This document shows positions 6,302 through 33,097 of a DNA stretch of 33,097 nucleotides, piece by piece. Source of the stretch: a virus; the IMG/VR virus record IMGVR_UViG_3300009425_000053, positions 1-33,097 of that record; one strand, 5' to 3'. The notes beneath the pieces were generated by a model that worked only from the letters and a program-made list of their open reading frames with translations, was not told the DNA's origin and searched no databases. Positions within the stretch are counted from its first letter, which is position 1; every line of letters begins with the position of its first letter. The position numbers and the translations under genes were made by a program.

Positions 6302-7456
6302 TTAATTTATTGCATATTTTCCGAAGTTTGGTTTTGATAAAATACTGTAAGTTCCATATCTTAAAGCGTCAATTAAATGGTTATGTTTATCAATCGGTAT
6401 ATTAATAGTTCTGCCTGATTTATCTTCTTTCCATTTATAGTTTCTAAATTCTTGAATAGCGTTTGAACTATCGTTAGTAATATGTATTTTATATCTTTTT
6501 AATAAATCTATTCCTGCATTCACAGAGTCTTTACCTTTTATGCTTGGTCTAATATTCCAACCCATTCTTCTCAATTCATCAACAAGTCTTACTTCTGCTG
6601 AATCCGCCCAAATCATTTCTCTATTTATATTTAACGTTTTTAAAAAATTATGTATATCTGTAGTGGTCATTAATGTTCTATATAAAAACTCCTTACAATA
6701 CAGATTATAGCCTTCAGTCCAAATACCGATTAAAGTTGTAGGATCGTTAGTGTATCCAAAATCCATACCGTAAGATAAAAAGTTTGCGTTTTCAGGAATT
6801 GTATTAGTTTCAATATATCTAAAAATGGTTGCTTTCGTTACTCCTTTTATTCCTAGTCCGTAGATTTGCCAATATTGTTCGTCTGTGTCTCTTAGTCTTT
6901 CAATCTCTTCTTTGATCGTATCTTCTAAAAAAGGGTTGTCTAAATAATTAGTTTGAAAAAAATCGGCATCATTTCTTGGTATTACTTTATCATATATCCA
7001 ATGATATTCGTCTGAAGGGTTGTAGTCAATTATTATTTTTTCTTGCGTTCTAAATATTAACTGTTGCCAATCTTCCCAATACAATTCGTTTGCTTCATTT
7101 ATAAATAACAAATCTCTTTTTCTTCCTCTTACTTTTTGAGGTTGATCCAAGCTTATAAATTCAATTAAATTTCCATACAATTGATATTCGCTTGAGGACT
7201 TATTATGAGCCTCCTCTGCATACATTTTATGCTTTTTTAGAATATCTATAAAGTCTCTCATCACTGAGGCTCTAAGACTAGGAAAGGTCTTTCTACATAT
7301 TGTTATAGTTTTATTTCTTTTATTAGTACAATAACTAAATATGATCCAAAGCAAAATATTATAAGTTTTACCTGATCTTGTTCCGCCCTGTTCAATAATA
7401 ATTTTCTTTTTACTATCTACTAAATGCCCGTAAACATCATTAGTCTTTATTCTCAT
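6302..7456 (-). CDS. terL: Terminase large subunit (PBSX-type), 384 aa
   Basis: The ATPase and nuclease motor that packages DNA into the prohead. Numbered from ATG 7456: Walker A GGTRSGKT at residues 24-31, Walker B DLLFINEAN at 115-123 with the catalytic Glu at 121. The C-terminal RNase H-like nuclease carries DFGYTNDP (first Asp about 232), WADSAE (Asp 285) and a final Asp in HNHLIDALRYG (about 363). The length is normal for PBSX-type enzymes. An upstream TTG (7471) would add five residues, but I prefer the ATG. It overlaps the small subunit gene by 17 nt. Smallest-to-largest order and overlap are typical of a packaging operon, here directly downstream of the DNA modification genes. Confidence 0.95.
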   Translation of the reverse strand: MRIKTNDVYGHLVDSKKKIIIEQGGTRSGKTYNILLWIIFSYCTNKRNKTITICRKTFPSLRASVMRDFIDILKKHKMYAEEAHNKSSSEYQLYGNLIEFISLDQPQKVRGRKRDLLFINEANELYWEDWQQLIFRTQEKIIIDYNPSDEYHWIYDKVIPRNDADFFQTNYLDNPFLEDTIKEEIERLRDTDEQYWQIYGLGIKGVTKATIFRYIETNTIPENANFLSYGMDFGYTNDPTTLIGIWTEGYNLYCKEFLYRTLMTTTDIHNFLKTLNINREMIWADSAEVRLVDELRRMGWNIRPSIKGKDSVNAGIDLLKRYKIHITNDSSNAIQEFRNYKWKEDKSGRTINIPIDKHNHLIDALRYGTYSILSKPNFGKYAIN

Positions 7457-7796
7457 TCCTGATAATCTCAACTGTTACATTAGTTGGCAATCCTTCTGCT
7501 CCTGTTATTTCTTGTCTTTCCACGTATCCTCTTTTTTTACCTTTTGTTTTTAATGCAAAAATAATAGAAGCCGTACATCCTGTATTTATTTTATCTACTA
7601 ATTTACTCTCTGCAAAATCAATGAATATATTTTCAGGTTCAATACAATCTAAAGTATTTTTAAAATCTTTATCGTTTTTTTTCCAGTTATAATATGTTTG
7701 TCTTGATATGTTTACCGCTCTACAACTTCGAGTAACGTTCCCGAAACTCTTTTCGTAAGTTTCAATAAAAGCCTTTTTTGTTAATTTTGTGTCCAT
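7440..7796 (-). CDS. terS: Terminase small subunit (118 aa)
   Basis: A 118-residue protein with an N-terminal helix-turn-helix: FGNVTRSCRAVNISRQTYYNWKK splits into a helix around 18-26 and a recognition helix at about 29-39 of the phage terminase small-subunit type. The C-terminal part (residues 60-118, including SIIFALKTKGKKRGY at about 77-91) matches oligomerisation regions of this family. It recognises the packaging start site and recruits the large subunit. The gene ends inside terL (17-nt overlap) and follows the P-loop kinase gene after 6 nt, so packaging and DNA modification genes are probably cotranscribed. Confidence 0.85.
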   Translation of the reverse strand: MDTKLTKKAFIETYEKSFGNVTRSCRAVNISRQTYYNWKKNDKDFKNTLDCIEPENIFIDFAESKLVDKINTGCTASIIFALKTKGKKRGYVERQEITGAEGLPTNVTVEIIRNENKD

Positions 7797-7802
7797 TTTT
7801 GT

Positions 7803-8309
7803 CTATTTTTGTATCAAATTAATGATCTCTAATTTAAGCCGTTTGTATTCTTCATCCGTGTTATTGTTATATAATATAACGTTGTTCTTTTCTATTATGT
7901 TTACAATCTTTGTTTTCTTAGCCTTTTTAAACACTTCTGTTTGATTATCTGATCTTAATATGTGTCTACCTTCCAAAGTTTTATTATCGGCTTTTAAAAC
8001 AACTATTTTACATTTATATTTATTAAACAGACTTTGATTGAATAATCTGTCTCCTTCAAAGATAACCAACGAATTTTTAACTTTATCTAAAAATTTAAAA
8101 AAATCAGGTTGAACAGCCATTGAAAGTTTGTCTGTGCCTGAGAAGATTGAATTATCATAAATGCCTATAAAATATATATTATTTTTTTTATTGTATAGTC
8201 CTCTAACTAATTTAAACTTAAAAGTGCTTAAAGGTTTATAGTTTTTAATTATATCTTTTAATAGAGTTGTTTTTCCTGAAGCGGGTTCTCCTCCTATTGC
8301 TATAATCAT
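7803..8309 (-). CDS. P-loop nucleoside/DNA-base kinase, probable 5-hydroxymethyl-dU DNA kinase catalytic subunit (168 aa)
   Basis: Walker A GGEPASGKTT lies at residues 6-15. A Walker-B-like strand LVIFEGDRLF (81-90) carries E85, D87 and R88, and a conserved-looking segment FSGTDKLSM lies at 56-64. Arginines at 115 and 119 could form the lid. The pattern is that of small P-loop kinases near base-hypermodification genes, where experimentally studied relatives phosphorylate the hydroxymethyl group of 5-hydroxymethyl-dU in DNA. The gene is 1 nt downstream of the helical aGPT-Pplase2-type gene and just upstream of terS. Those two domains are, as I recall, part of one kinase in other phages, so this may be a split enzyme. 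The kinase fold is clear; the substrate is inferred from context. Confidence 0.75.
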   Translation of the reverse strand: MIIAIGGEPASGKTTLLKDIIKNYKPLSTFKFKLVRGLYNKKNNIYFIGIYDNSIFSGTDKLSMAVQPDFFKFLDKVKNSLVIFEGDRLFNQSLFNKYKCKIVVLKADNKTLEGRHILRSDNQTEVFKKAKKTKIVNIIEKNNVILYNNNTDEEYKRLKLEIINLIQK

Positions 8310-8310
8310 T

Positions 8311-9036
8311 TTACAATATACATTCTTTAGCTCTATTATTTAAATGAATTAGATCTTGACCGGGTTTATACTTATTATGAACGTGGGAATGATACTTGCA
8401 AAGTAAAGTTTCCAACTCGTTTAATCTTAAACCTTTTCCGTTGTTATGAGGAGAGTCTATGTTTTTTAAGTCTTTTAAAATAGAATAAGCGTTTTTTAAT
8501 AATTTATTATAGATATTCGTATCTGTAAGTATTTTTAAATTTTCCGGCATATCGTTAACTAAAAGAAGTCCTTTTAAAGGAAATGTATATGCTTTTCTGA
8601 AATCTAAAGATTCAAAATCTACATCTACTCCGTAACAACAATCAATCAAATCCATAAATTTCCAAGCCGCCCAAGGTCCAAATCCTTTTATTGTTTTAAT
8701 TCTATTGAATATTTTGTTACCGTTTTCTAAAAAAAACTTCTCTACGTTAACTCCCATAAAAGCTCTTTGTATATTATTTAGATATTCTTTTGCGTTGTGT
8801 TTACTTTTTCGTCTTTCGTTTCCGAACTTGACTTGGTCGATTGGTTTCATCTTAGAAATAACTTGTAACTCTGAGTGACTGTCGTAGATAACTAATTTAT
8901 GTAGTATCCAGTTAAATATTTGTTTTTTATTAAAACCCAGTTCTTTGCTTTTTTCTCTTAAAAATATGTAATCCGGATCTATGTCACCCGTTAAAAGTAG
9001 CTCTTTAGAAAAATCATAAAAATTATATTTATTCAT
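8311..9036 (-). CDS. aGPT-Pplase2 / HMUDK helical-domain protein for DNA base hypermodification (241 aa)
   Basis: A 241-residue, largely helical protein. Its key segment is KTIKGFGPWAAWKFMDLID (114-132), a helix-hairpin-helix-like GFGPW motif, followed by FESLDFRKAYTFPLKG (141-156) and a C-terminal LNELETLLCKYHSHVHNK (205-222). I recognise this set as the family first predicted to be alpha-glutamyl/putrescinyl-thymine pyrophosphorylase clade 2 and later linked to the helical part of 5-hmdU DNA kinases. It overlaps the TET/JBP gene by 8 nt and is followed after 1 nt by the P-loop kinase. The family is associated with hypermodified thymine in phage DNA. The exact reaction here is not readable from sequence. 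Confidence 0.75.
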   Translation of the reverse strand: MNKYNFYDFSKELLLTGDIDPDYIFLREKSKELGFNKKQIFNWILHKLVIYDSHSELQVISKMKPIDQVKFGNERRKSKHNAKEYLNNIQRAFMGVNVEKFFLENGNKIFNRIKTIKGFGPWAAWKFMDLIDCCYGVDVDFESLDFRKAYTFPLKGLLLVNDMPENLKILTDTNIYNKLLKNAYSILKDLKNIDSPHNNGKGLRLNELETLLCKYHSHVHNKYKPGQDLIHLNNRAKECIL

Positions 9037-9940
9037 TAAATTTGTCTCCGGGTTTTCTTCTCTTTACTTTTTCGTTTTCTTCTTTAGCAGACCCGCAGTT
9101 GATCATATTTTTTCTGTAGTACATAACTAAACTGATTCTTTTAGCGTCTTTGTCTATTAATTCAATAGGAGTGTTTCCGTGCCATTGATGAACGTCTACT
9201 AGTAAAAGATCAGAAACTTGTAAATCAAAAGCAACTCCCCATTTTGGAACAACAAAATATCCACCAACATACCTTCCTTTTCTAAGAGCAACTAAATTTC
9301 CAAAACCTTTCTCGAAGTCTCCAGAGTCAGTATGAACAGCGGTTTGCCAATTTTTATTTACTGTTACAGTAGTAAAAGCAGTATTAGTAATAACAAAATC
9401 TTGCGCTGTTTTATCAGCTTCGGTTCTTTGAAGTTTATATTCTTGAGGCATTAATTTTGAATAAGCTTTATCTACAAATTTAATTATCGGATATGCTTTT
9501 TTAAATTTACTAAATTCCTTTTCATTAAAAGAAGTTTGTCTACAATAGGGAGTTCTAGGACTTTTATCAAAATAACCTATAATACCGCTGTTTACTTCCG
9601 TTAAAAGTTTTCTGTTACTGGATTGCGTTCCGTCTTTTTTAATCGGATTTTTTCCAAAAGTTCCGTTTTCTTTTTCGCCTGAGCTTATTGCTCTATTGTT
9701 AGAATGTCTAGAAGCTCCTTTTAAATTTTCATAAGCGTCTCTACAAATATTACTAGGAATAACTTTTTTTCTAAATTTAGCTATTGTTTTTCCTGTCTCT
9801 TTACAATATACGTCTGCGTCATAAGTCACTAAAGTATTATAATCTTTTTCACTTAATAAAGCGCCTTTTAATTTGTTGACTTTTTCGTCATTTAAAACAG
9901 GCTTTAATTTTATTATCTCAATTGAGCTTTTCATATTCAT
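9029..9940 (-). CDS. TET/JBP-family 2-oxoglutarate/Fe(II) dioxygenase (303 aa), probable thymine hydroxylase
   Basis: The C-terminal half is a double-stranded beta-helix oxygenase. TTVTVNKNWQTAVHTDSGDF (190-209) holds the metal-binding H203-x-D205. The distal His lies in DVHQWHGNTP (H254 preferred), and RISLVMYYR (268-276) supplies the 2-oxoglutarate-binding Arg. This arrangement is typical of TET/JBP enzymes, which hydroxylate the methyl group of thymine or 5-methylcytosine in DNA. The N-terminal 120 residues are polar and basic (for example the Asn/Ser-rich region around 75-110), possibly a DNA-binding part. ATG 9940 overlaps the ParB-like gene by 23 nt; a second ATG at 9934 would shorten it by two residues. 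With kinase-type neighbours and no methyltransferase in the genome, thymine is the likelier substrate. Confidence 0.85.
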   Translation of the reverse strand: MNMKSSIEIIKLKPVLNDEKVNKLKGALLSEKDYNTLVTYDADVYCKETGKTIAKFRKKVIPSNICRDAYENLKGASRHSNNRAISSGEKENGTFGKNPIKKDGTQSSNRKLLTEVNSGIIGYFDKSPRTPYCRQTSFNEKEFSKFKKAYPIIKFVDKAYSKLMPQEYKLQRTEADKTAQDFVITNTAFTTVTVNKNWQTAVHTDSGDFEKGFGNLVALRKGRYVGGYFVVPKWGVAFDLQVSDLLLVDVHQWHGNTPIELIDKDAKRISLVMYYRKNMINCGSAKEENEKVKRRKPGDKFNE

Positions 9941-10502
9941 TTTTAATTACTTGAAAAACAGTATCTGTTGCGTTATCAGCTCCAAGTTTTTTTCTAAGAG
10001 CTAACTCCATTTTTTTAAATTCAGGCTCTGTATCAACATTTAAATACAACTGAATCATTCTAGTATGAGAAGGTTCTAGCCCTTCATCAGGAAAACTATA
10101 CTCTCCGGTGTCTTCTATTTCGGATTCAATTTCTTCGGCGTCTTCCCATTTCGGAATATCCAAACCCCAATCTTTTAATTTATCCGTGTCCCATTGATTT
10201 GCTAAAACATCCCAATCCCACTCCCCAAAATTTGAATTGTCTTTTATTATAAATTCTTGTTTTTGTTTCTCAGTCCAACCTTTTGCTATTAATATATCCA
10301 CCTCTTTTAATCCTGCTTGAGCACAAGCTCTTAATCTCATATTGCCTCCAAGAACTACCATATCTTCGTCAACTACTATCGGTCTTTTTTCTAGCATTTC
10401 AGGAAAACTTTTAATAGAGTCTAGTAATTTTTTATATTTATAGTCCTTTATTACTCTAGGGTTTTCAAGATTTGGTTTAATTTTATCTATTTCTATTTTC
10501 AT
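9918..10502 (-). CDS. ParB-like domain protein (194 aa)
   Basis: The N-terminal ParB/sulfiredoxin-like fold is marked by LENPRVIKD (12-20) and VVLGGNMRLRAC (49-60). The GG-x-x-R signature is the CTP/ATP-binding motif of ParB-type domains. A polar second part contains GEWDWDVLANQWD (about 93-105), and an acidic stretch around 120-140 precedes a helical C-terminus. Phage ParB-like proteins often sit next to DNA methylases or modification enzymes and may guide them or act as nucleases. Here the gene overlaps the TET/JBP gene by 23 nt and the HNH gene by 4 nt (ATGA). It is not a plasmid partition protein by context, as no ParA is present. Confidence 0.75.
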   Translation of the reverse strand: MKIEIDKIKPNLENPRVIKDYKYKKLLDSIKSFPEMLEKRPIVVDEDMVVLGGNMRLRACAQAGLKEVDILIAKGWTEKQKQEFIIKDNSNFGEWDWDVLANQWDTDKLKDWGLDIPKWEDAEEIESEIEDTGEYSFPDEGLEPSHTRMIQLYLNVDTEPEFKKMELALRKKLGADNATDTVFQVIKNEYEKLN

Positions 10503-10930
10503 AATATGTCTAATTGATTAATATTGGTATATCTAGCTAATTGATTTTGAGAATTTGTTACCCACCTTAAATTTAAATAATGGTTGTTTATTTTGTTCCC
10601 GTCTATATGATCTACAAAATTATATGTTTTTTTATCAAAACACTCAACAAAAGTGCAAGCAACTAATCGGTGCAAAGAAAATCTTGTATTGTAATTTTGG
10701 TTAAAAATCTTTATGTAAGCGTATATGTACGGGTCATAATCTCGTTTTGTTTGAGTCAATATTTTATCTGAGAGTTTACTATATATTTGCCCTCTTCTAT
10801 TTATAAGATAATTTAAAAAAACTACCGGAACATTTGGGACTAGATTTTTGTTTTGACTACGGACGCTCCAATATTTTATTGGGCGAAATTCAGACAATTT
10901 ATCTTCCTCCCAAAACGTTAATTGTTTCAT
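10499..10930 (-). CDS. HNH endonuclease, homing-type (143 aa)
   Basis: A basic 143-residue protein. YLINRRGQIYS (41-51) resembles the NUMOD4-type module of homing endonucleases. The HNH core is SLHRLVACTF (85-94, with H87) and VDHIDGNKINNHYLNLRWVT (106-125), ending in NSQNQ. The pattern matches free-standing phage homing or nicking endonucleases. It is bracketed by 4-nt overlaps on both sides, so it is fully knitted into the operon, which argues for stable residence over a recent insertion. It could instead be a useful nuclease in replication, packaging or host-DNA attack. Confidence 0.85.
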   Translation of the reverse strand: MKQLTFWEEDKLSEFRPIKYWSVRSQNKNLVPNVPVVFLNYLINRRGQIYSKLSDKILTQTKRDYDPYIYAYIKIFNQNYNTRFSLHRLVACTFVECFDKKTYNFVDHIDGNKINNHYLNLRWVTNSQNQLARYTNINQLDIL

Positions 10931-30707: not shown

Positions 30708-33097
30708 TTAATCGTTTTTAGTTTTGTAAGTAACTCTATTAGTAATATATCCATTTACTATTTGAACGCTAACGCCTCTCGCCATTCCTGAGTTAGCAGA
30801 ATCAACTCTAATTCCTACGTAAGGTGTAAAGTCAGGAACATACAATCCGTCTACTTCGAAAATACTACCAGCAAAACTAGAATAAAAACCATCCGCAAGT
30901 AAAGCGTTTGAATCACGCGTTGACGCGTAAAGTGAAATATTAGTTTTTCCTAAAGGATGAATATTTTTATCATCTTCTGCATATCTGTTTTCATAAGTCA
31001 TTATCGGTATATAAGTTGCGCCAGTATCTCCAACGTTATAAGATTTTGCTGCATTTTTAGCAATTTGAACATCAGTTGCGTGGTAAAACACATATGAAGA
31101 ACTTCCCAAAGCTCCGTCTAAGCCAAAAAACGGATAACTTGAACCAACACTAGTATTAAATGTAGCCGCGTTTCCTTCTACTATGTAAGGAACTATTTTG
31201 GAATAAAAATTCCATTCGCCGAATAATATTCCTTTGTAATCTTTAAGCTCTCCAGCCGCATTCATTATTCTAATAGTCCTAATGTTTCCATCCCATTTTG
31301 TTGACGCAGGTATTGTATATGACTGCACGTTGGTGGTTTGGCTATAAACTATTGACGCTTCAGCGGTTGCAGTAAAAATATCACTAATAACATCAGCAGT
31401 TTTAAAATTAGTTGTTGTATTTGTTCTTGCAAAAAATCTCCAATATTTTACATCTCCTTGCGAGAGACCGTTTAATTTAAATAAATATTTTTTTACATTA
31501 GTTGAACTTTTTGGACTAGAAGGCGTGTATTTTACATTCGTAACTGCGCCCGAAGCAATAAGAGTATCTAAATTAGTTCCTATTAAAGCTGCATTTGTAT
31601 TAGCGTACAAGAAACCGTAACTCTCAAGATTCCCGACTTCACAAATTTTTCCTAGCTGAGTAATATTATGAGAAAAAATAACACCTGAATTAGATTGAGT
31701 TTCTTGAACGGGTTGAGATAATATAGCCGAAGTGACTTCGCATTCCTCGTTATTTATAGGAACAGGAGTATTGCCCGGAATCGTTGACGGTATTTTTATT
31801 ATTGGATTGTCTAGAACTTCTTCATATTGAATACCCGCATCCGCAGTAACAACAGTACTATCAGCGGTTGTTCCTGTAGTTTTTACGTCTAGATCTATTG
31901 TTGATATAGCTTCTAATAAATTTGCTATTTCTTTTCTTTCGTCAAATACGTTTATTAATTCTAATTGAGATTTAAGATTTTCAAAATTAGTAGTGATTTT
32001 ATTTATTTTATATACTTTGTCTGATATAATTAACCTGTCAAATAATTGGAGTTTTGTAATAATTGCTAATGGAATAAAAGCGTCTAACTTTGTTAATCGT
32101 CTTTCTACTTTGAAAACGTCTTGAATATAAGTCTTATAATAATCATTAAATAAAGTATCATTAAAAGGTCTCAAACTATATTCATTAATTTCTGCTGAAA
32201 AGTTTAATGTTTTAGAGGCGTCTAATTTTATTGAATTGCTTGGAATATAATATGTCGTTAACTCTTCGTGTCCTGAAGCTCCAATAAAACTAATTGAAGT
32301 GGGGGTTTGAAATCCTGTAGTAACATTAGTTGCTTTAATCGGATAAAATAATAAAGGCTTTCCAACTGTTGGCTTTTCGTCTTTATTAGCTGCCCATCCC
32401 CATTGTATACTTGTAGAGCTTGAGTCGTATTGATTAACAAGTTTCTCAAATTTAAAATGCTCAAACGGAACTTTAATTTCAAACTTTTTACCGTCAAATT
32501 TAGAATCTTTGTATTTTATTCCTCCCCAAGGAACTCCAAACCTTTCTTCGTGATCATCTGCAAAAAAGTTTTTAGTGCCTTCGTATTTTAATTCTATTTG
32601 ATTAAAAGGTATCGTTGTATTTATTTCGCTTTTTGTAGTATCAATATGTTTTCCAATATCATAATATGAAACAGGTTTTAAAGTAGAGCCTGCATAAAAA
32701 GAGTCTAAAGTTCGTATTTGAGTAATTCCATCGTCATCAATAAAAGCTGTCAAATTAAACATTTTAAATATTCCAGTCAAAAAATCCAATATTTTCATAT
32801 CAGGTAAATTGTCTTTTATTGAAAACTTTTCTGATGAAAAAGTGCTTCCGGTAGCTTTCCAAGTCAATATTGCGTCTCTTCCTGAGTATAATGCCGTCAC
32901 TTTTAATTCAGCAGTATAAGTTGCAGCCGCTACTCCTCCAACTTCAATAGTATGAGATCCGGGTTGTAAATTTAATCCAATAATACTAGAAGATCCGGTC
33001 AAGTCGTCTTCTTGATAAATAACTTCGCCCTCTCTTCGTACTATTACGTTGTATTTTGAGTTTCCGGAACTGCTGAAACTACCGTCTAAAAATTTAG
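30708..33097 (-). CDS. Tail-tip/minor tail protein, C-terminal part (5' end outside or at window start)
   Basis: The frame is open up to base 33097 (first full codons read KFLDGSF), with no credible start nearby except a TTG at 33002 inside the frame, so it is 5'-truncated here. It includes SIKDNLPDMKILDFLTGIFK (about 80 residues in), followed by MFNLTAF, a motif I associate with the same large tail proteins that carry the FSVPASKNNN-type motif at the left edge. The rest is beta-rich (764 residues after the TTG), ending in NGYITNRVTYKTKND. If joined through the 8-bp overlap it forms one 1,138-residue tail-tip protein. It precedes the tape measure. Confidence 0.75.
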   Translation of the reverse strand, partial: KFLDGSFSSSGNSKYNVIVRREGEVIYQEDDLTGSSSIIGLNLQPGSHTIEVGGVAAATYTAELKVTALYSGRDAILTWKATGSTFSSEKFSIKDNLPDMKILDFLTGIFKMFNLTAFIDDDGITQIRTLDSFYAGSTLKPVSYYDIGKHIDTTKSEINTTIPFNQIELKYEGTKNFFADDHEERFGVPWGGIKYKDSKFDGKKFEIKVPFEHFKFEKLVNQYDSSSTSIQWGWAANKDEKPTVGKPLLFYPIKATNVTTGFQTPTSISFIGASGHEELTTYYIPSNSIKLDASKTLNFSAEINEYSLRPFNDTLFNDYYKTYIQDVFKVERRLTKLDAFIPLAIITKLQLFDRLIISDKVYKINKITTNFENLKSQLELINVFDERKEIANLLEAISTIDLDVKTTGTTADSTVVTADAGIQYEEVLDNPIIKIPSTIPGNTPVPINNEECEVTSAILSQPVQETQSNSGVIFSHNITQLGKICEVGNLESYGFLYANTNAALIGTNLDTLIASGAVTNVKYTPSSPKSSTNVKKYLFKLNGLSQGDVKYWRFFARTNTTTNFKTADVISDIFTATAEASIVYSQTTNVQSYTIPASTKWDGNIRTIRIMNAAGELKDYKGILFGEWNFYSKIVPYIVEGNAATFNTSVGSSYPFFGLDGALGSSSYVFYHATDVQIAKNAAKSYNVGDTGATYIPIMTYENRYAEDDKNIHPLGKTNISLYASTRDSNALLADGFYSSFAGSIFEVDGLYVPDFTPYVGIRVDSANSGMARGVSVQIVNGYITNRVTYKTKND
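33090..33097. repeat. 8-bp direct repeat shared by both window ends (copy 2)
   Basis: The last eight bases, aaatttag, repeat the first eight of the window. See copy 1 at 1-8 for the circular-closure interpretation. Confidence 0.65.

Follow-up and report, generated by a model that had tools for sequence, protein, structure and literature searches.

In the experimentally characterized cases of thymine hypermodification in phages, a hydroxymethylase provides 5-hydroxymethyl-deoxyuridine (5hmdU) triphosphate, which is then inserted by the phage polymerase. Hydroxylation of thymine within DNA by an enzyme of the TET/JBP type is known from the synthesis of base J in kinetoplastids (JBP1/2), and networks of such hypermodification genes are said to have been predicted earlier by Iyer et al. 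in 2013 and by Lee et al. in 2018 and 2022. Here, we describe a four-gene cassette from a small marine phage, located in the IMG/VR virus record IMGVR_UViG_3300009425_000053 (33,097 bases, analyzed in full and called the window in the following). It encodes a ParB-like protein, a TET/JBP-type oxygenase, a helical protein assigned as amino acid:DNA transferase (ADDT) and a P-loop kinase, and is a very reduced version of a known system. We consider it fairly probable that this cassette constitutes a complete, minimal, and post-replicative pathway, in which thymine would be converted via 5-hydroxymethyluracil (5hmU) and 5-phosphomethyl-deoxyuridine (5-phosphomethyl-dU) to N-alpha-glycinylthymidine as the end product.

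The same gene set has been annotated in the Rhodococcus phage Tonitrus, for which thymidine hypermodification genes were reported in 2025 (PMC11955845), so that this kind of cassette is already known. As in the window, ParB-like, TET/JBP, aGPT-Pplase2/ADDT, and P-loop kinase genes occur together; a thymidylate synthase was not found in the Tonitrus genome and the lyase profile had no match in its first 8 kb. In contrast to the window, small extra genes are interspersed, sequences are highly diverged (the ADDT is ~27% identical), the host is actinobacterial and the system is known from annotation only. The window is thus a further member of the TET-type branch, for which we found no experimental work. 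To this, our analysis adds a structure-based assignment of the third enzyme, tests of mutual exclusion bearing on the substrate, a clean lyase loss, and modular swapping at one locus.

For Pseudomonas phage PaMx11, a pathway leading from N-alpha-glycinylthymidine to 5-aminomethyl-dU has been described (Wen et al. 2024, cited in PMC11946847; PDB 8z2m, 8z2n, 8z2o, 8z79). There, the glycinyltransferase reportedly yields N-alpha-glycinylthymidine, which a flavin lyase then converts to 5-aminomethyl-dU. The window shares with PaMx11 homologs of the glycinyltransferase (gp46) and of the 5hmdU-type kinase (gp49) and, by prediction, the phosphomethyl-dU intermediate. Where the window has its TET gene, PaMx11 has the thymidylate-synthase-like gp51 in the same gene chain; it also has its own DNA polymerase, the flavin lyase gp47, the acetyltransferase gp48, and further genes, all of them missing from the window. 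Pseudomonas phages M6 and YuA form 5-(2-aminoethyl)dU (PMC6449724, PMC11946847). Their ADDT (YuA gp10) and kinase (YuA gp13) fall into the same PHROGs as those of the window, whereas a hydroxymethylase takes the place of the TET enzyme and extra tailoring genes are present. Examination of the window for an M6/PaMx11-type pathway revealed the adjacent kinase and ADDT, with dUMP hydroxymethylase and flavin lyase absent by profile. Caulobacter phage Cr30 likewise has TET, ADDT, and kinase, but its ADDT is of the ViI type (PHROG_3271), the genes are scattered over a 156-kb genome and there is a strong thymidylate synthase match. Base J synthesis shares the hydroxylation of thymine in DNA by a TET/JBP-type enzyme; it differs in adding glucose instead of a phosphate and an amino acid, and in its function in transcription.

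The four genes (7803-10502, minus strand) each overlap or abut the next, as had been described in a first-pass annotation of the reading frames. This annotation had classified the helical protein, recognized by its GFGPW motif (residue 118), as aGPT-Pplase2 type, which was borne out by PF18724 (Amino acid:DNA transferase; 8.4e-10, 39.2 bits, cut-off 26.2) and is now complemented by a solved close structural relative. The protein belongs to PHROG_6364, as does YuA gp10. Its AlphaFold model (predicted local distance difference test score, pLDDT, 93.9) matched 8z2n (PaMx11 gp46) with a Z score of 20.4 over 231 residues (root-mean-square deviation 3.0, 21% identity). The next-best structural matches were helix-hairpin-helix DNA glycosylases with Z scores of at most 8.5, which may reflect no more than a common arrangement. 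The sequence alone matched the solved ADDT chains 25qc (2.9e-12) and 8z2m (2.2e-9), and it retains every column invariant across 29 relatives. The family profiles of ADDT and kinase contain YuA, Cr30, or Melnitz sequences, so that their E-values for those phages are circular. Based on the model, the helical protein is predicted to be a transferase that consumes phosphomethyl-dU, with an amino acid replacing the phosphate. The earlier suggestion that phosphomethyl-dU might be the final base, made since no transferase had been recognized, thus loses its ground, as an ADDT would make this base an intermediate and not the product.

More specifically, we predict a 5-phosphomethyl-dU glycinyltransferase (PUGT), glycine being the donor suggested by the structural match and by 78% identity to a lyase-linked ADDT. 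The latter belongs to the sister contig L009, where a gene for a 262-aa protein is located exactly at the junction of ADDT and kinase; the window lacks this gene and shows a clean junction. In the relatives, the 262-aa protein matched 8z2o and 8z79 (1.3e-55), which identifies it as a flavin-dependent lyase. Contigs from two further metagenomes, with 99.5% and 99.95% identity to the window, show the same lyase-less junction, and profiles of lyase, GNAT acetyltransferase, and amidotransferase had no match in the window. In a tree of ADDT sequences, the proteins of the window and L009 are sisters (100/100) within a clade of 11 rows (96/97), of which the ten rows other than the window all come with the lyase. 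Because the window ADDT nests among lyase-bearing phages, glycine specificity was likely inherited, and a clean loss of the lyase in the window lineage is the simplest reading, leaving N-alpha-glycinylthymidine as the predicted end product. This nucleoside corresponds, in DNA, to 5-carboxymethylaminomethyluridine (cmnm5U) of tRNA.

Among the IMG/VR relatives, the ParB-TET and kinase-terminase flanks are constant while the content between them varies. It consists of the ADDT alone (the window and the two near-identical contigs), of ADDT and the 262-aa flavin lyase, or of a class II glutamine amidotransferase, often with a GNAT acetyltransferase, together with an ADDT of the ViI/Cr30 type (PHROG_3271). 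This last module replaces the glycine-type ADDT in L004:2562-4424, L013, L038, L047, and many other loci, which raises the question whether the amidotransferase of these sister phages serves as ammonia donor for a 5-aminomethyl base. In one contig (L074:347-5675), the TET and kinase genes flank ADDTs of both types. Other groups show the order ParB-ADDT-(lyase)-kinase-TET, and the distant L092 and L094 also have lyase-less cassettes. Chances appear about even for the wider proposition that a JBP-type hydroxylase acts on finished DNA, that three enzymes lead to terminal N-alpha-glycinylthymidine, and that relatives switch the product by gain or loss of the lyase or by swaps of transferase modules.

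The strongest competing explanation, although an unlikely one in our view, accepts the route to phosphomethyl-dU and assumes another final adduct, either because the ADDT accepts a donor other than glycine, be it an amino acid or an amine, or because the base is completed by an unassigned enzyme of phage or host. ADDT families do differ in their donor (M6 and ViI types), several open reading frames of the window have no assignment, and some relatives combine the ViI-type ADDT with the glutamine amidotransferase. Against these points stand the close identity of the window ADDT to one encoded beside a glycine-type flavin lyase, a glycinyltransferase as its best structural match, and the missing lyase, acetyltransferase, and amidotransferase matches.

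The oxygenase, attributed to the TET/JBP type on first inspection, was placed inside Tet_JBP by profile hidden Markov model search (PF12851; 4.3e-29, 101.3 bits, cut-off 34.9). Its iron ligands H203xD205 and H254 as well as the 2-oxoglutarate-binding R268 are invariant in 17 aligned sequences. Regarding its substrate, thymine or 5-methylcytosine (5mC), 54 ADDT-bearing records were searched with profiles of TET, PF00303 (thymidylate-synthase-like hydroxymethylase), family A DNA polymerase, and C5-methyltransferase. TET was present in 24 and PF00303 in 21 of them, with both occurring only in Cr30 (Fisher test, 2.5e-6). Family A polymerases were confined to the records lacking TET (19 of 30, compared with 0 of 24; 3e-7), and a C5-methyltransferase exceeded the cut-off in a single one of the 24 records with TET and ADDT. 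In the window genome, profile searches for family A polymerase, thymidylate synthase (PF00303), and cytosine-C5 methyltransferase (PF00145) gave no match. As a control, Melnitz-type TET contigs had the C5-methyltransferase in 24 of 24 cases and an ADDT in none, while TET relatives of P12024L had an ADDT in 8/10 and a methyltransferase in 0/10. Over all TET-bearing records so tested, ADDT and C5-methyltransferase were near-exclusive (3e-12, uncorrected for kinship). Because TET and PF00303 alternate and C5-methyltransferases are nearly absent from the records with TET and ADDT, thymine in DNA, and not 5mC, is the likely substrate of the window enzyme. We conclude, on comparative and not on chemical grounds, that it would replace the dUMP hydroxymethylase as the source of 5hmU. 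The initial proposal of a thymine-DNA hypermodification, in which thymine may be oxidized within DNA and then activated by phosphorylation, was supported.

It is improbable that the oxygenase acts on 5mC and that kinase and ADDT then hypermodify 5-hydroxymethylcytosine. Melnitz-type TETs do have a C5-methyltransferase of the HhaI type next to them, together with a related kinase, and these records served as positive control; the route was disfavored, as PF00145 is absent from the apparently complete window genome and from nearly all TET and ADDT records. Furthermore, the methyltransferase-linked TETs form one clade (100/100) separate from all others, a result independent of the P12024L row L282, which received its ADDT label without a test, and known ADDTs act on 5hmdU-derived DNA.

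Several other TET cassettes were encountered. In Methylophilales phage Melnitz-3 (L058:4010-8090), an HhaI-type C5-methyltransferase, a TET enzyme, a 427-aa protein of no known type, and a related kinase follow consecutively, possibly specifying a 5mC-based phosphorylated hypermodification. L051:5368-7708 and L054:5105-8793 are cassettes of ParB, TET, and TET-associated glycosyltransferase (TAGT), the second one also with a radical SAM gene. Neither contig had a C5-methyltransferase, and their TETs cluster with the thymine-type TETs in the TET tree; they may make glycosylated 5hmU resembling base J. In Pelagibacter phage HTVC112P (L057:5375-7597), a ParB-TET-FkbM methyltransferase cassette could possibly yield a methylated hydroxymethyl base.

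The kinase displays the Walker A motif (residue 6) and the FSGTDKLS segment reported for it (FSGTDKLSM at 56), followed by FEGDR at 84; Walker A, GTD, and EG(D)R motifs are conserved in 15 aligned sequences, and its model (pLDDT 96) adopts a fold like that of nucleoside monophosphate kinases. Its placement among 5hmdU kinases by the first-pass annotation was sustained in part. It matched PHROG_800 (1.4e-9), which also contains YuA gp13, a match of Pfam HMUDK_HMUD1 (PF18748, 7.8e-18). A profile iterated from the window kinase reached YuA gp13 in round 3 (7e-11) and then matched PaMx11 gp49 (8e-31). PF18748 itself was not among its direct Pfam matches, and when the kinase family was compared with YuA gp13 by pairwise HHalign, Walker A alone could be aligned, so that the link needed the iterated profile. 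By homology only, we assign the kinase to the 5hmdU-DNA-kinase superfamily.

The label "terminase small subunit" of PHROG_800 was rejected for this protein, as the real small subunit (TerS) adjoins it and YuA gp13 is a Pfam HMUDK member. PHROG_800 holds 5hmdU-type DNA kinases, often encoded beside terminase genes (matches include window 7803-8309, L059:19737-20282, and L061:12053-12616), and its label has probably spread through many phage annotations. In Mycobacterium phage ChrisnMich (L208:1-4109), the order is ParB-TET-kinase-terminase with no ADDT found between; its kinase is annotated as "adenylate kinase", that of a related phage as "terminase small subunit". Phosphomethyl-dU or a further tailoring enzyme of no known type is possible in this phage.

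The ParB-like protein, first noticed by a GGxxR motif (GGNMR, residue 52), matched PHROG ParB families at E-values down to the order of 1e-24 (PHROG_17622, 1.9e-24; PHROG_620, 3.3e-24), whereas Pfam ParB_N stayed below its cut-off (3e-4, 21.2 bits, cut-off 26.3). Its gene lies upstream of TET in most relatives, and the protein probably guides or holds the modification enzymes on DNA, as a targeting factor or scaffold.

Taken together, the proposed pathway would proceed as follows. As the search for a family A polymerase in the phage gave no match, the host polymerase probably copies ordinary thymine-containing DNA. The oxygenase would then hydroxylate selected thymines to 5hmU, the kinase would phosphorylate the hydroxymethyl group, and the ADDT, with its fold resembling helix-hairpin-helix DNA glycosylases, would probably flip the base out and exchange the phosphate for the glycine nitrogen, giving N-alpha-glycinylthymidine (5-carboxymethylaminomethyl-dU). 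The ParB-like protein probably targets these enzymes to DNA or retains them there. Trimming to 5-aminomethyl-dU by the flavin lyase, as expected in relatives, would be lost here, so that the pathway would stop at glycinylthymidine. The position of the cassette just upstream of the terminase genes, in the same run, suggests that modification takes place late and before packaging; the modified base may shield the phage DNA from host nucleases.

Several points weigh against this pathway. Gene content, family membership, the fold of the ADDT model, the absence of alternative genes, and the lyase loss are observations, from which we infer every chemical step, the glycine donor, the ParB role, the timing, and the protective function. 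The amino-acid specificity of an ADDT is not readable from sequence with confidence. The window kinase is closer to Pfam Ploopntkinase3, e.g., Tonitrus gp7 (HHalign probability 98), and the helical partner of HMUDK (PF18723), present as YuA gp14 and also in PaMx11, had no match in the window in a search whose control was silent as well, so that absence is not proven. The co-occurrence counts (TET in 24 and PF00303 in 21 of 54 records) are not phylogenetically independent, and a literature search, which did not cover key papers, retrieved no report of thymine oxidation by a phage TET.

Two further explanations were considered. It is quite improbable that the cassette is decaying or inactive after the lyase loss, with largely unmodified DNA: one gene is indeed lost relative to sister phages, but none of the four reading frames is disrupted, their active-site motifs are conserved, two other assemblies contain nearly identical copies, and lyase-less cassettes appear again in L092 and L094. 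Least probable of all is 5-phosphomethyl-dU as final base with a structural or binding role of the helical protein since, even though ParB-TET-kinase cassettes with no ADDT found between exist (e.g., ChrisnMich), the window ADDT is undecayed in its invariant columns and its glycinyltransferase fold.

With this cassette, the alternative start, in which thymine is oxidized after it has become part of the DNA, can be tested directly with three small enzymes, and a special pool of nucleotides is not required. If the proposed pathway is true, its first step would be a prokaryotic equivalent of the one that opens base J synthesis, and the pathway would offer an easy way to convert thymine into glycine-bearing DNA in vitro; the sister phages would form a natural series whose members differ in a single tailoring gene.

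Table 1. Positions of the cassette genes, the variable junction, and the adjoining terminase genes in the window.
Feature	Position	Strand	Basis and predicted role
ParB-like protein, 194 aa	9918..10502	-	PHROG ParB families; first gene of the cassette
TET/JBP 2-oxoglutarate/Fe(II) oxygenase, 303 aa	9029..9940	-	Pfam Tet_JBP; predicted thymine to 5-hydroxymethyluracil in DNA
Amino acid:DNA transferase (ADDT, aGPT-Pplase2), 241 aa	8311..9036	-	PF18724; predicted 5-phosphomethyl-dU glycinyltransferase
P-loop kinase, 168 aa	7803..8309	-	PHROG_800; predicted 5-hydroxymethyl-dU DNA kinase
ADDT/kinase junction, site of the lyase gene in L009	8290..8320	-	Sequence comparison with L009 and two assemblies
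Terminase small subunit, next gene of the same run	7440..7796	-	PHROG terS matches; context, outside the pathway
Terminase large subunit	6302..7471	-	PHROG_2, 3.6e-39; context

Reading from 10502 down to 7803, the cassette runs from the ParB-like gene via oxygenase and helical protein to the kinase, followed by TerS and the terminase large subunit (TerL). The adjacency of kinase and TerS is kept in relatives, and the order ParB-TET-[module]-kinase-TerS-TerL was found again in dozens of IMG/VR contigs.

Bases 1-8 of the record are identical to bases 33090-33097 (AAATTTAG; chance of such a match ~6e-5), while no direct terminal repeat of at least 10 bp was found at its ends. When the ends are joined over this 8-bp overlap, a tail gene with one open frame of 1138 codons is restored, and in several relatives both end fragments match a single reading frame, spaced roughly as expected. 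Because of this in-frame joining and the single frame of the relatives, we read the record as a circularly permuted genome that appears complete at 33,089 bp. An HNH endonuclease gene (HNH_3, 10499-10930) overlaps the start of the ParB-like gene; it was not found there in most relatives and is perhaps a homing insertion.

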